Shown: in pieces, positions 56,192 to 62,586 of the stretch
Layout: every line of letters starts with the position of its first letter
Position numbering within the stretch: the stretch's first letter is position 1
From: a virus
Direction: 5' to 3' (one strand)
Length of the DNA stretch: 64,000 bases
Virus record (IMG/VR): IMGVR_UViG_3300025030_000071
Span: 22,749-86,748 of that record
Notes under the pieces: model-generated
What the model saw: only the letters and a program-made list of their open reading frames with translations
Databases searched by the model: none
Told to the model about the DNA's origin: nothing
Translations under genes and position numbers: made by a program

Positions 56192-56819
56192 CTCTGAGGT
56201 CTTCTGAACTAGCAACACCAGCCCACTTAATATTATAGGTCTCACCTGGAAGGAACCCTCGCCAGTGCTGCACTGGAGGAGTACTACAAATATACTTAAC
56301 AAATTTTATATTTGGATAACCTTCAATCGAATCATAGAACCTAGCTACACAGCGAAGGTTCTCAAAGACCTTGCCTACCGACTTGCCAGTCTTTTCGTCC
56401 TTCCCAGTAATAAGGGCTATTGTCTTTCCATGTAGGGAATCCATCTGTCTATAAGGCTCTTCACCTTGTTTGTAGAAGAGTTCAACCTTATAATGTTTAC
56501 CACCTTCTTTAGTGGTCTTGATAGCAAATGGTTCTAGTATATCAGCGACCCATTTCTTCCCTTCTGCGAATTTGACTCGGATCTCAGACCCGTCGCCAAT
56601 TTCATAAAAATTAACTCCAAGATCAAAATCTTTTCGAAATACAACCTGTTCCTCTTCATCCTCGGCAACCGAGGCTTCCACAGGACCAGATTCAAACCCC
56701 TCACCAAAAGCCCCAGGATCCATTTTAAGCTCCGAGGAATCTTTTTCTATAGGGTCACCTAGGGTCCCTTTTTCTGAGGGCTTAAAAACGATCGCTTTTT
56801 CTTTCTTCTTATTAGCCAT
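56184..56819 (-). CDS. Unknown acidic protein of the DNA-metabolism block, possible ssDNA-binding protein
   Basis: A 211 aa protein. The first 60 residues are disordered and acidic. The rest (about 62-205) reads like a beta-barrel: DFDLGVNFYEIGDGSEIRVKFAEGKKW, YKVELFYKQGEEPYR, then CVARFYDSIEGYPNIKFVKYICSTPPV. An OB-fold single-stranded-DNA binding role fits the context (it sits beside a RecB-like nuclease, AAA+ ATPase and RusA resolvase), but no diagnostic motif is present. GGAG lies 6 nt before the start. The gene's stop overlaps the rightward block by 8 bp. Confidence 0.5.
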   Translation of the reverse strand: MANKKKEKAIVFKPSEKGTLGDPIEKDSSELKMDPGAFGEGFESGPVEASVAEDEEEQVVFRKDFDLGVNFYEIGDGSEIRVKFAEGKKWVADILEPFAIKTTKEGGKHYKVELFYKQGEEPYRQMDSLHGKTIALITGKDEKTGKSVGKVFENLRCVARFYDSIEGYPNIKFVKYICSTPPVQHWRGFLPGETYNIKWAGVASSEDLRAS

Positions 56820-57813
56820 TCAAAGCTCCTTCACGAATACCAACCAAATCAGCTTCAGGATTTGGTTTGCCATTCCTCAAATAACAAAAACTTCTATATT
56901 CACAATAAGACTGACACAAGAAATGGCCAGGAGTATCTTTAAGACTTGCTAACGGCTTACCTGCTTTTACCCAATCTTCATAGGCAGTTTTGCCTATTTC
57001 TTCTTCATCACGCAAAGCCTCAATCTCTTCTTCAGAATAAAATCTCTTATAAGTTCTTTCGGGAATAATCCCTTCATTAATATATCTCATTTCTTCTTCA
57101 GTTGAAGCATAAATATCTTCTACAGAAAAACGTTTTTCAATATATGGAAGGAAATCTTCAGTCTCTAACTTGGCATAATGCTTACCATCAATTTCTACAA
57201 GAGTAACTGTATATTCCCTATACATGCCTGTTTGATCACGAGGAATATAAATCAACTGGAACCAATCAAGAACAAAGTCAGTTCCTTTTCCTTCAGAACA
57301 CTCCCAAAGGTAAATCATAGTCTGCATCAAAGCACTATCTTTTGGTTTCGGTTGAAATGCAGGCTGTCCTTTCCAGGGTCTAGCTCTACCTTTAATATGC
57401 TTTAAAGCACCCTGACCCCAACAACTTTTTGCTTCGGTGCCGTAGTACCTAGTGCTGCTATCGTCTGCTCTATAACGCCCAACAATGTCTAATTTACCCG
57501 AAAGATTAAAATCTTTTACATAGACCCGAACATCTTCGTGTTCATAGATACCTGCTCGCTTCATACCCTCGATAATAGCTTTCTCAACAGCATTGCCTAA
57601 AATGTGTGACAATTTAATATATAGATTGCTTGGGTCAGAATCAGGCACATCATGTATCCGATACCAATCCGCCCTCCAACAACCACCTATCTGTCTGCCA
57701 TTAGCCAGCTTAACTGAAGCCGAACTAGGATATAAAGTAGGATTTCTTCTTTCAGTAGGATGCCTTTTTCTAGTTAATTCCCTTTCAACAATAGGCATTA
57801 AATTAAAAACCAA
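56812..57813 (-). CDS. Cas4/RecB-like PD-(D/E)XK nuclease with Fe-S cluster
   Basis: A 333 aa protein. Catalytic residues visible: D109 in SGKLDIV, then E127-x-K129 in TEAKS, and Q164-xxx-Y168 in QTMIYLW. Four cysteines, C45 (GGCW), C300, C304 and C310 (CQSYCEYRSFC), match the 4Fe-4S cluster pattern of the Cas4/AddB/RecB-like group. This group acts as 5'-3' or 3'-5' DNA exonuclease or in strand processing. TTG start with GGAG 7 nt upstream; an ATG 15 nt downstream (57798) would be an alternative. It overlaps both neighbours. Confidence 0.85.
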   Translation of the reverse strand: MVFNLMPIVERELTRKRHPTERRNPTLYPSSASVKLANGRQIGGCWRADWYRIHDVPDSDPSNLYIKLSHILGNAVEKAIIEGMKRAGIYEHEDVRVYVKDFNLSGKLDIVGRYRADDSSTRYYGTEAKSCWGQGALKHIKGRARPWKGQPAFQPKPKDSALMQTMIYLWECSEGKGTDFVLDWFQLIYIPRDQTGMYREYTVTLVEIDGKHYAKLETEDFLPYIEKRFSVEDIYASTEEEMRYINEGIIPERTYKRFYSEEEIEALRDEEEIGKTAYEDWVKAGKPLASLKDTPGHFLCQSYCEYRSFCYLRNGKPNPEADLVGIREGALNG

Positions 57814-59518: not shown

Positions 59519-60004
59519 TTAGATTACTTCGTTATAAAAACTCAAATAAATCTTAGTACTTGGAGGACAAGAAACTTTTTTATTGTCCTCATCTCGCATC
59601 ACACCGGCATAATACTTACGGCAATCCATAAACCAAACTTGTCTGTCATCCTTCCACGCAATACCAGTTAATGCATCAAGCATAGCTTTTAAAACATTAT
59701 CTATATCAGGCTTTGCTAAATGATGGATAGGATCCATGCCGAGTCTTTCCTGCATCATACCTACCGGCCGAGGAAAATAAAAATGAGCCCCAACTTGTAC
59801 TAATCCCTGATGAGGGAAAGCAACCTTCTTCTCAACAGCAATCTTTCCAAGAGCATTTTCAAAACCCTCTCTAACCGCTTGTTTATATTCCTTAACATTA
59901 TTATCATTAGGAGTATACATCTTAATAAGGTTACCACGCCTAGCGGCTTTAATTCTGGGTTGAGCTATTGGTCTACCAAGAACCTCATAATCAATCAATA
60001 TCAT
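59519..60004 (-). CDS. rusA: RusA-type Holliday junction resolvase
   Basis: A 161 aa protein with the RusA signature HxxKPDIDNVLKAMLDALTGIAWKDDRQV (key residues K, D, D, K, D, D, D), plus VLGRPIAQPR near the N-terminus and an RPV motif (PRPVG) in the middle. RusA cuts Holliday junctions using Mg2+ bound by the aspartates. I prefer the ATG at 60004 (AGGGG six bases upstream) over the ATG at 60010. It overlaps the end of the spliced nuclease gene upstream. Confidence 0.9.
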   Translation of the reverse strand: MILIDYEVLGRPIAQPRIKAARRGNLIKMYTPNDNNVKEYKQAVREGFENALGKIAVEKKVAFPHQGLVQVGAHFYFPRPVGMMQERLGMDPIHHLAKPDIDNVLKAMLDALTGIAWKDDRQVWFMDCRKYYAGVMRDEDNKKVSCPPSTKIYLSFYNEVI

Positions 60005-61593
60005 TCTCATCCCCTAGGCTTCTTTTATAAGCTTTAGCTAACTGATATTTTTCCTTTCTAATACTTTTAGCTAACTCTTTTCTCTCTTGATAGTAACTAC
60101 TTTCTTTATATAGTTCATAAGAACATCGCCAACAACTTCTCTTATATCTAACCCAATTATCTGAAGTATTTTCCTTTATAGCAGTTAAGCATTTATCCTT
60201 AAAAGAAACAATATCAGTTAAATCATCATCAAACCAAATACAAATTAAACTGATACCTTGCTCAACGCAAAGGTCCTCTTTCCGCTTATCCCTATGCTTA
60301 GAAGCTAAAAACCCACCTTGATCTTTATGGAAGTGCTCAACAAATTCCCTATGCTGTCTTCCATGACCAGTTTTGTTATCACTAAAGTTTTTTATCTCTA
60401 GTTTCTATATGTCACCATATAGCTCAGCATATATCATCGCCCTCGACTCTACGTTAGGGCGTCCAGCGCTCGTGGTAGTTTTATTGGATGAGTTCCTCAA
60501 CTACTATGCGTTGCACCTTCCATCTTACTTTGATACTCTTCTGATGGCTTGGCTCAGAATTTTCTGCAATTGTTTTTCATCTAGCCAATAAGGCTGTGAA
60601 GTATCTAAACGCAATAAATAAATATCATTTTCCAAACAAAAAGCATCTTTAATTAGATCTTTTTCTCTTTGATAAAAATATCTTTCATCACCATAAAGGC
60701 CTTTTATCCTATGTATAGGGCCATCAACCTCAATAGCAAAATTAATCGATGGTATCCAAAAATCTAATTCTAAAAAACAATTAGTTACAAGATTCTTAAT
60801 TAAGGAACGATGTCTCCTAAAAACAAGTTCTCTATTAACTAAATTTGCCAAAAGATTAAAAACATAGTCTTCTGCTCCGGACTGCCCCAGCGGCTTAACA
60901 CCTTTTTGACGCCTATACTTTTTTAAACGTGATCGCTCTTTAACTAAGCATCCATCACATTTTACAAAATTAGTAATAGGCTGAGCGCATTCTGTGCACA
61001 AACCATTAGATTTAAGATAAGCTCTTCTTTTCCGCCTTTTTAAACGAATTTCAGTTTTTTCTTCATCAGTAAAATTTTTTCTTCTGTTTTTCTTTTCAAC
61101 AGATTCTCTTTCTTTTTTTCTATCTGATGCACAAAAAAAACAGTATACATTCCTAGTATGCTTATCAATCTTTGTTTCACAAGTTTTACACGATCTATAA
61201 AGCTGAATCTTTAGCTTTTGCTCACGCTTTTCACTATAGATTTTTCTAGAATAAATACGTTTACGCTCTAACTCAAAAATAGTTTTACATTCAAAACAAC
61301 GTTTTTTATTACCATGACCAAATAATTCTTTATTACACTCTAAACAATTCATTAGATATACTCCATAAACTAAATGTTGTATACCTCGCAATAACAGACT
61401 TCCTCTGAATTCACTGGATTATTCGACTATAATTTCTTATAGAAGGAGCAATCTACTCTATTCCAAGACCATAATCTGGCAAATAAAAATCCAGCCTAAG
61501 CCCTTCACCTAAATGAAACTCAGACTGGATCTTTACATCTATCCCAAAAATATTAAGTATTAAATCTTTAACTTGCTCCGATAACTTTGACAT
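59991..61593 (-). CDS. Vsr/DUF559-like nuclease gene split by a group I intron
   Basis: Two exons: 61593-61455 and 60379-59991 on the minus strand, total 528 nt, 175 aa. Exon 1 ends ...LRLDFYLPDYGLGIE plus T; exon 2 starts AT then AAC. Joining them gives E-Y-N-K-T-G-H-G-R-Q-H-R-E-F and restores one open frame to the stop at 59991. The joined motif DFYLP...IEY...GRQH...RDKRKEDLCVEQGISLICIWF is the PD-(D/E)XK / Vsr-like endonuclease fold. The intron sits right after the catalytic Glu codon. Without splicing, exon 1 would stop at TAG immediately after GIE and exon 2 has no start codon. Exon 1 overlaps the end of the 109 aa gene; exon 2 overlaps rusA. A zinc-like C-xx-C pair lies in the second exon. 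Confidence 0.85.
60380..61454 (-). ncRNA. Group I self-splicing intron with its own ORF
   Basis: A 1075-nt intron. P1: 5' exon GAGU pairs with intron GCUC, giving the U-G pair at the splice site. P2: CUAUAA/UUAUAG at 61427-61442 with a GAAA loop. P7: GCAUA (60509-60505) pairs with UAUGC (60431-60427). P8: CGCCCU/AGGGCG at 60438-60461. P9: CUAUAU/AUAUAG with loop GGUGAC at 60405-60422. A further stem precedes the 3' end ...UUUAGUG. This matches the layout of phage T4 td-like introns as I recall them (P8, P7', AUGGUGACAU-type P9, terminal G). The P7 pair differs in sequence from td but keeps pairing, i.e. covariation. P4-P6 was not worked out fully. Confidence 0.85.
60525..61352 (-). CDS. Intron-encoded homing-type endonuclease with three zinc ribbons
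   Basis: A 275 aa protein encoded inside the intron. The start is the ATG at 61352 with GGAG 8 nt upstream. Three Cys4 zinc ribbons lie in the first 140 residues (CLEC..CFEC, CKTC..CFFC, CTEC..CDGC), separated by highly basic Lys/Arg stretches. The C-terminal domain carries LELDFWIPSINFAIEVDGPIH and later LIKDAF..ENDIYLLRL: a Vsr/EDxHD-like catalytic fold. Homing endonucleases of this kind spread the intron into intronless copies of the gene. The C-terminal nuclease domain is related in fold to the gene it interrupts. Confidence 0.8.
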   Translation of the reverse strand: MNCLECNKELFGHGNKKRCFECKTIFELERKRIYSRKIYSEKREQKLKIQLYRSCKTCETKIDKHTRNVYCFFCASDRKKERESVEKKNRRKNFTDEEKTEIRLKRRKRRAYLKSNGLCTECAQPITNFVKCDGCLVKERSRLKKYRRQKGVKPLGQSGAEDYVFNLLANLVNRELVFRRHRSLIKNLVTNCFLELDFWIPSINFAIEVDGPIHRIKGLYGDERYFYQREKDLIKDAFCLENDIYLLRLDTSQPYWLDEKQLQKILSQAIRRVSK

Positions 61594-61897
61594 TATTCCA
61601 CACCGATATTGGCCTATTAATTGATGTAGGAGGAATTCTCCAAACTACTGGCCCATCCTTATAGGCACAGATACAAATCTCACAATCAAGAATACCTAAA
61701 TCTTTATACATATCTAACAAAGCAATCATGTCTCCCGAAATACCGAAGACTTCTTTTACACCCTTTAACCATTTGGCATCATCAGAATTCTCATAACGAT
61801 AATACCAAACAAAGTCTTTAATATGTTCTAAATCACTTTCGTTCCAGATGCTACCCTTAACACCTGGAAAAATTCTATATGATTCACCTTTTTTCAT
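61568..61897 (-). CDS. Small unknown protein
   Basis: A 109 aa protein with Trp- and Tyr-rich sequence (KDFVWYYRYENSDDAKWLKGVKEVFG) and a Cys pair (CEICICAY). The start ATG overlaps the end of the Cas4-like gene (ATGA). Its last 26 nt overlap exon 1 of the split nuclease gene. No family recognised. Confidence 0.55.
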   Translation of the reverse strand: MKKGESYRIFPGVKGSIWNESDLEHIKDFVWYYRYENSDDAKWLKGVKEVFGISGDMIALLDMYKDLGILDCEICICAYKDGPVVWRIPPTSINRPISVWNNVKVIGAS

Positions 61898-62586
61898 CTA
61901 ACATTAACCGCCTCACATACCGAAACCAAAGGGCATGTAATACAAGAACTCGTATTAGGATATGTAGTTTTAATCTGCATAGATTGCATAACAGAAGCAA
62001 AATCTAATAAAGCAGATTCAAAATATCGGTTGGTAGGCTTCATCTCTAACGCAGACAGCAAACGAATAGGGCCAACTGCAAGAACATAGATCTTGTTTAC
62101 AGGTAAATCCTCATTTAAAACAACACTCGTATAACGAACAGAAGGCTCAACAAACAAAAGATTTTCATTAAGAGTACTATTCAAAATAAAAACCAGATCT
62201 ACTTTACCAGCAGTTTGTATAACAACTGGAATTTCAGAAACAAGTTGATGACCGTAAACTAAAGAAGAAGACATGCTATAATTTACGGCTAAAACTTCTC
62301 CATTTACATCAGTATACCAGTCATACAATTTGGTTAAAAGTAATATTGATTGGTTAAATTCTTTCTGAGTGAATTCAACAACAGAAGCTTCGCATAAAGA
62401 CTTCCATTTCTTCTCAAATCTAGCCCAAGAAAACTTTCCTCCAGATTCCATATCATGCCTAAAAGCAAACTCAACTATTTGCCTAACAAGAAGTGCATAA
62501 TCCGTTAAAGGTGCCACATGGCCACCTTGTTCATAGAATTTAGGACAAAAAGAAAAACCCACTAACTCATTTATAGATGCTTTCAT
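61894..62586 (-). CDS. Cas4/RecB-like Fe-S protein lacking the ExK motif
   Basis: A 230 aa protein. An N-terminal Cys (C14 in FSFCPKFYEQ) and a C-terminal trio (C215, C218, C224 in SSCITCPLVSVCEAV) form the 4Fe-4S pattern of Cas4-type proteins. D130 in AGKVDLVF fits the acidic residue of the PD-(D/E)XK core, but the position of E-x-K reads VEPS (E147-P-S) and lacks the lysine. The fold is probably kept and nuclease activity lost. It overlaps neighbours by ATGA at both ends. Confidence 0.65.
   Translation of the reverse strand: MKASINELVGFSFCPKFYEQGGHVAPLTDYALLVRQIVEFAFRHDMESGGKFSWARFEKKWKSLCEASVVEFTQKEFNQSILLLTKLYDWYTDVNGEVLAVNYSMSSSLVYGHQLVSEIPVVIQTAGKVDLVFILNSTLNENLLFVEPSVRYTSVVLNEDLPVNKIYVLAVGPIRLLSALEMKPTNRYFESALLDFASVMQSMQIKTTYPNTSSCITCPLVSVCEAVNVR

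Follow-up and report, generated by a model that had tools for sequence, protein, structure and literature searches.

A probably mobile group I intron in a Vsr-like nuclease gene

A small Vsr-like nuclease gene of a phage is interrupted by a genuine group I intron of the IA type, which is probably mobile and carries an endonuclease that is homologous to the product of the interrupted gene. The intron occupies positions 61454 to 60368 on the minus strand of a stretch of 64,000 nt, hereafter the window, which corresponds to positions 22,749-86,748 of the 86.7-kb IMG/VR record IMGVR_UViG_3300025030_000071. The element itself is of a known kind; what is new is its host, a gene for a Vsr-like nuclease into which an intron with a related nuclease has been inserted. 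From the sequence comparisons it is very probably a homing-capable, self-splicing phage intron of this type, inserted in codon 47 of the host gene and with its endonuclease ORF in the P5 loop. Sequence comparison establishes how the RNA folds, where the exons join and to which families the ORF and the host gene belong, and from this we infer splicing activity, cleavage and homing for the system.

The intron ends are fixed by three agreeing constraints, namely the possible pairing of U61455, the base before the 5' splice site, with G61449, the terminal G60368, and the exact restoration of the IECHGRQH frame; the U-G pairing and the final G are the ends expected of a group I intron. The other group I features are also present: P7 and P3 form a pseudoknot around P8, and the P4-P5-P6 domain appears in the unconstrained minimum-energy fold, with compensation of P4 in relatives. 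P1 is short, with only 4 bp, and no convincing P10 candidate was seen. The positions of all these elements are given in Table 1.

Table 1. Features of the intron and of its host gene, in window coordinates.
Feature	Position	Strand	Basis or remark
Exon 1, ATG to GAG-T (46 codons plus base 1 of codon 47)	61455..61593	(-)	translation; homologue alignment
UAG stop across 5' splice site in unspliced mRNA (GAG/U-AG)	61453..61455	(-)	sequence
Group I intron, 1087 nt	60368..61454	(-)	A61454 (after U61455) to terminal G60368
Putative P1, exon GAGU 61458-61455 / GCUC 61449-61446, U-G at 5' splice site	61446..61458	(-)	sequence
P2 hairpin CUAUAA-GAAA-UUAUAG	61427..61442	(-)	sequence and MFE fold
P3 5' strand UCCAGUG	61412..61418	(-)	pairs with 60468-60462; MFE fold; six relatives
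P4 5' strand UUCAGA	61404..61409	(-)	pairs with UCUGAG 60558-60553; compensated in six relatives
P5 5' strand UCUGUuAUUG	61389..61398	(-)	9/10 pairs with 60572-60563; ORF between P5 strands
Intron ORF, 275 aa, ATG 61352, GGAG upstream	60525..61352	(-)	sequence; family match
P5 3' strand CAAUuGCAGA, within ORF	60563..60572	(-)	sequence and MFE fold; compact P5 hairpin here in relatives
P4 3' strand UCUGAG, within ORF 3' end	60553..60558	(-)	compensated in six relatives
P6a CCAUC 60547-60543 / GAUGG 60524-60520, ORF stop UAA (60527-60525) in loop	60520..60547	(-)	MFE fold
P7 5' strand, A60511, bulged C60510, GCAUA 60509-60505	60505..60511	(-)	alignments of relatives
P7.1 GUAGUU 60504-60499 / AACUAC 60480-60475, inner P7.2 GAG/CUC	60475..60504	(-)	covariation
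P3 3' strand CGCUGGA	60462..60468	(-)	7/7 pairs; between P7.1 and P8
P8 GCCCU 60460-60456 / AGGGC 60443-60439	60439..60460	(-)	covariance model and MFE fold
P7 3' strand, UAUGC and U60426	60426..60431	(-)	alignments of relatives
P9 hairpin CUAUAU-GGUGAC-AUAUAG, 60422-60405, GGUGAC loop	60405..60422	(-)	covariation
P9.1 terminal hairpin ACUAGAG 60402-60396 / CUUUAGU 60387-60381	60381..60402	(-)	covariation
Exon 2, GT-CAT-GGA... to TGA	59991..60367	(-)	matches uninterrupted homologues L002-L016

Covariation in the 3' domain

The original prediction placed a P7 helix of GCAUA (60509-60505) with UAUGC (60431-60427) in the intron and argued that changed bases with kept pairing, relative to T4 td, reflect a real helix. 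The comparison of relatives confirmed P7 at exactly these bases and added a sixth pair, A60511-U60426, around the bulged C60510. For this analysis we used a MAFFT alignment of 34 distinct introns, the window intron and 33 divergent phage introns. Every sequence forms the full set of six P7 pairs (100%), a figure inflated by the fact that the rows were cut around a P7 strand chosen by complementarity; in an alignment not selected on P7 complementarity, with rows of differing layout included, each pair is formed in 86-97% of the sequences. Two-sided changes were observed in three of the six P7 pairs of the 34 introns (A-U/G-C; C-G/A-U; A-U/C-G/G-C). They were also found in all six pairs of P7.1 (82% of cells paired), in four of six pairs of P9 (100%) and in all seven pairs of P9.1 (89%). 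For P7, P7.1, P9 and P9.1 jointly, 92.8% of the cells are paired, against 64.8% in shuffles, none of which (0/500) reached the observed value, and against at most 52.7% when the partner strand was slid. P7 is thus not a chance similarity, as the two-sided changes and both controls indicate.

A scan of IMG/VR with one consensus of P9 and the 3'-end region, in which P7 was left unspecified except for its last C, returned at least 119 stretches. The matches listed, from all loci with the window included, number 128; of these, 43 have UAGUC as the 3' strand of P7, 43 have UACGC and 38 have UAUGC. The exact P7 complement occurs upstream in 114 of these 128 listed matches, where about 1/6 would be expected by chance as estimated from 5-mer frequency, and the next pair outward, which had played no part in locating the strand, reads A-U or G-C in 112 of the 114. 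In these matches P7 thus has three common versions, namely GCAUA/UAUGC, the GACUA/UAGUC of td, and GCGUA/UACGC. The difference from td is therefore not a change private to the window intron.

Fold of the ribozyme core

We folded a core of 277 nt, from which the sequence between the P5 strands had been removed. Its unconstrained minimum-energy fold contains P2, P3, P4, P5, P6, P7.1, P7.2, P8, P9 and P9.1 together; only P7 is missing, as expected because it forms a pseudoknot. The fold energy has a z of -3.47 and none of 200 shuffles folded as well. P3 taken alone in the 69-nt 5' segment is unconvincing, since about 4% of shuffles do as well, and P4 alone is likewise unconvincing, so that both count only because of the joint fold and their compensation in relatives. 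Six relatives show the same layout with other bases. P3 has 7/7 pairs in the window intron and in all six, with UCCAGUG/CGCUGGA in the window against CUGGAUG/CGUCCAG, UUGGGUG/CGCCCAA and UCGCGUG/CGCGCGA in relatives, and P4 reads UUCAGA/UCUGAG in the window against UUCAGU/ACUGAG, CUCGGU/ACCGAG and UUCGGG/CCCGAG. P5 in the six relatives is a compact hairpin exactly where the window intron holds its ORF, and therefore the ORF sits in L5. The 3' end of the ORF also supplies strands of P5, P4 and P6, with the stop codon in the P6a loop.

The 3' order that had been read from the window sequence at the outset (P7, a P7.1/7.2-like region, P8, the P7 3' strand, P9 with loop GGUGAC, a terminal stem and a final G) is present in full, although that list omitted the 3' strand of P3 between P7.1 and P8. 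The complete folding that had been proposed as a check, with P3-P6 included, now extends from P1 to P9.1, with P3 and P4 covarying in the six relatives. Introns of subgroup IA2 are described as having an extended domain 9 and a domain 7 with two hairpins (PMC4227781). P7.1 with a short inner P7.2, and P9 with P9.1, are present in the window intron, in which P9.0 was not made out.

Covariance models

A covariance model built from the 33 relatives, with the window excluded, matched positions 60373-60518 with 117.3 bits (E = 2.2e-23), and the 3' domain agrees with the family consensus almost throughout. The next-best place in the window had an E of 0.2, and neither the rest of the window nor the rest of the 86.7-kb record gave a further significant match. 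RF00028, the group I model of Rfam, scored 27.7 bits at the intron (E = 1e-4 in a short search), under its 50-bit gathering cut-off, and Rfam at the gathering threshold gave no match in the window. A covariance search over 60380-61454 had been suggested as a check of the intron, and it gave a significant score with the window-free model, the stock RF00028 alone staying below threshold. The low-threshold RF00028 alignment puts P1-P3 within the ORF; we discarded this placement and assigned these helices to the 5' segment 61454-61386 instead. Five related phage loci carrying the same 3' domain gave no Rfam group I match at E 0.001. Because the window match is below threshold and these five loci are without match, the Rfam group I model under-detects this intron family, in line with the limitation of the stock group I model stated elsewhere (PMC11878797).

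Host gene and splice junction

Based on homologue alignment, the host gene (59991-61593, minus strand) is a small Vsr-like nuclease of 171 aa when spliced. The exons join as GAG-U/GU-CAU, inside codon 47, and the joined exons restore exactly the motif IECHGRQH, which is invariant in 11 uninterrupted homologues; this invariance is inflated, as the homologue loci were seeded partly on the motif, while length, frame and alignment of the rest of the protein are unbiased. The spliced product also follows the family pattern LDF-x-IP...IECHGRQH...D..K in the alignment with the 11 homologues. The uninterrupted homologues show 24-39% identity to the host gene and the empty site rests on them, the homologue searches having found no close uninterrupted allele; such an allele is predicted to read contiguously ...ATAGAGTGTCATGGA... 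across the joined exons. Since a UAG stop spans the 5' splice site, unspliced mRNA would yield a stub of 46 residues that lacks most of the active-site motif. The structure model of one homologue (pLDDT 90) has Vsr (1vsr) as its closest meaningful solved fold, with probability 0.99, TM 0.55 and a weak E of 0.04, and the modelled fold of the host exon family thus resembles Vsr.

The neighbours of the host gene in the phage include RusA, an AAA ATPase and a sigma-like HTH protein, and no RecA or DnaB gene was recognised in the 86.7-kb record. A scan of genome contigs for the host nuclease returned no relative, and the neighbouring 109-aa protein, the sigma-like protein and the intron ORF, used as queries for relatives of the phage, returned nothing useful. 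Homologues of the IECHGRQH nuclease in eight IMG/VR contigs from diverse phages (L002, L005, L008, L010-L014) lie in a conserved block that runs from a RecA-like gene to a DnaB-like helicase gene and that in several contigs also holds a dCMP-deaminase-like gene; the block was read by eye in the eight contigs, and the Pfam check covered L008 and L012. In the window, two further proteins (61894-62586 and 56812-57813, minus strand) have a C-terminal cysteine cluster. One of them, of 333 aa, matches a Cas4-type exonuclease PHROG (E = 0.001), and the other, of 230 aa, is without clear family and appears Cas4/RecB-like by eye. On this reading, the operon would carry several nucleases.

The intron-encoded endonuclease and its relation to the host nuclease

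The intron ORF, which could also start at an in-frame TTG at 61391 to give 288 aa, consists of zinc-ribbon-like CxxC pairs and a C-terminal Vsr/EDxHD-type domain with the motif IEVDGPIH...D..K. It matches phrog_559 (E = 6e-13) and phrog_9084 (E = 2e-9), and by profile match and catalytic motif it is a predicted Vsr/EDxHD-type (phrog_559) homing endonuclease. Of the two proteins closest to it in public phages, one is encoded between the halves of a split terL gene (Aerococcus phage AVP) and the other between those of a split major tail gene (Staphylococcus phage F1). Sequence searches against solved structures gave no significant match to the ORF, and its AlphaFold model alone was too poor to use (mean pLDDT 40). 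A 328-aa relative in Staphylococcus phage SEP9 (2389-3375), annotated as 'homing endonuclease', is encoded directly upstream of DnaB helicase and primase genes, which suggests a replication-module nuclease rather than a homing enzyme.

The profile of the host gene aligned to the intron ORF over 68 columns (hhalign E = 3e-7, probability 93), and hmmsearch with the same profile scored 21.3 bits, against at most 9.2 in 200 shuffles. These matches indicate that the intron nuclease and the interrupted nuclease share the catalytic domain. The pattern LDF...IP...IE-x-[HD]-G-x-x-H is common to the products of both genes, and at the insertion site the aligned DNA agrees in 33 of 63 bases. One speculation, which we consider unlikely, is that the two share ancestry and that the intron may have arisen, or be maintained, through a nuclease that targets the active-site codons of its relatives, by which competing phage nucleases would be disarmed and the own allele protected.

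Alternative explanations

The same locus might be read as a degenerate group I remnant that has lost splicing and left the nuclease gene split and inactive, a view that agrees with the sub-threshold RF00028 score, with the short P1 and with splicing itself being a predicted activity. We regard this as improbable, because all core helices are intact and the 3' domain departs from the family consensus at few places. In addition, neither the exon frames nor the 275-aa ORF are interrupted by stops, and joining the exons at the predicted junction gives back the exact conserved motif. Going by its family match alone, the ORF could be a homing endonuclease gene that stands free between two separate small genes; there would then be no intron, and the helices would be due to chance. 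The covariation in P3, P4, P7, P7.1, P9 and P9.1 and the match of the independent covariance model (E = 2e-23) make this highly improbable, as does the finding that the sequences on either side correspond to the halves of a single conserved nuclease family. An intein, or another in-frame protein insertion, would share the location within active-site codons of a conserved gene, which inteins also favour; however, the first codon that reaches into the insert from exon 1 is a stop (GAG-UAG) and the RNA structure is complete, so that the chance of a protein insertion is practically negligible.

Comparison with known introns

The T4 td intron belongs to group IA2, interrupts the thymidylate synthase gene, encodes the GIY-YIG endonuclease I-TevI in its P6 loop and has the P7 GACUA/UAGUC. 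The window intron is similar to td in the order of group I helices, in the P7.1/P7.2 domain and in a P7 of the same length with compensated bases. In contrast to td, its ORF lies between the P5 strands and encodes a phrog_559 Vsr-type nuclease, and its host is a Vsr-like nuclease gene; neither a P6-loop ORF nor a GIY-YIG endonuclease, the marks of td proper, was found. Of the original description as td-like group IA, the assignment to group I and the IA-type P7.1/P7.2 domain hold, whereas 'td-like' is too specific given the ORF position, the endonuclease and the host. The endonuclease I-Bth0305I, reportedly an EDxHD family enzyme encoded in a phage recA intron, has the same Vsr-like/EDxHD active-site type as the window ORF.

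Similarity was also found with terL group I introns of Sextaecvirus staphylococcal phages and crAss-like phages (e.g. MT596499, MW589261, NC_055895), which share with the window intron the P7 GCAUA/UAUGC, the P7.1 domain, the P9 GGNGAC loop and the terminal GAUAACAA. They differ in the host gene, terL instead of a Vsr-like nuclease, and the endonuclease ORF of MT596499 ends just before the P6 3' strand and P7, whereas the window ORF is in the P5 loop. In Arcanobacterium phage TPWB06, related group I 3' domains occur at about 1235-1375 and 2424-2563, between fragments annotated as terminase large subunit, so that terL there carries at least two introns. The terL introns of Bastillevirinae encode phrog_559, a Vsr-domain nuclease (PMC11878797); they are group IA-like and carry the same nuclease type as the window intron, in a different host gene. 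The HNH intron endonuclease gp210 of phage PhiPA3, whose host gene is an RNA polymerase gene, can target co-infecting relatives (PMC11620839). That intron, like ours, is of group I and lies where a gene important to the phage encodes conserved catalytic residues, with an HNH enzyme in an RNA polymerase gene there and a Vsr-type enzyme in a nuclease gene here. A light literature search found no described case of introns in nuclease genes.

Proposed mechanism and significance

In the mechanism that we propose, guanosine would attack at U61455 and the RNA core from P1 to P9.1 would release the intron, with ligation after G60368, and the joining of GAG-U to GU-CAU would rebuild the catalytic motif IECHGRQH and restore the host nuclease. 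The 275-aa zinc-ribbon and Vsr/EDxHD-type endonuclease would most likely cut intronless copies of the same nuclease gene, and repair of the cut allele would copy the intron, that is, homing by analogy with known mobile group I introns. Ribosomes reading the 3' end of the ORF would probably block the ribozyme fold; ORF translation and ribozyme folding should thus exclude each other on one transcript, because that end forms strands of P5, P4 and P6.

The covariation evidence settles an intron call that had been made from RNA only. It also points to a widespread family of phage introns (more than 100 among the matches listed) with one 3'-end consensus, three P7 versions and an A-U/G-C switch around the bulged base, which the Rfam group I model sees poorly. 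The unusual part is the host, a Vsr-like nuclease interrupted between conserved active-site residues by an intron with a nuclease of the same domain, and in this case it can be tested directly whether a homing endonuclease is directed at active-site codons in genes related to its own.
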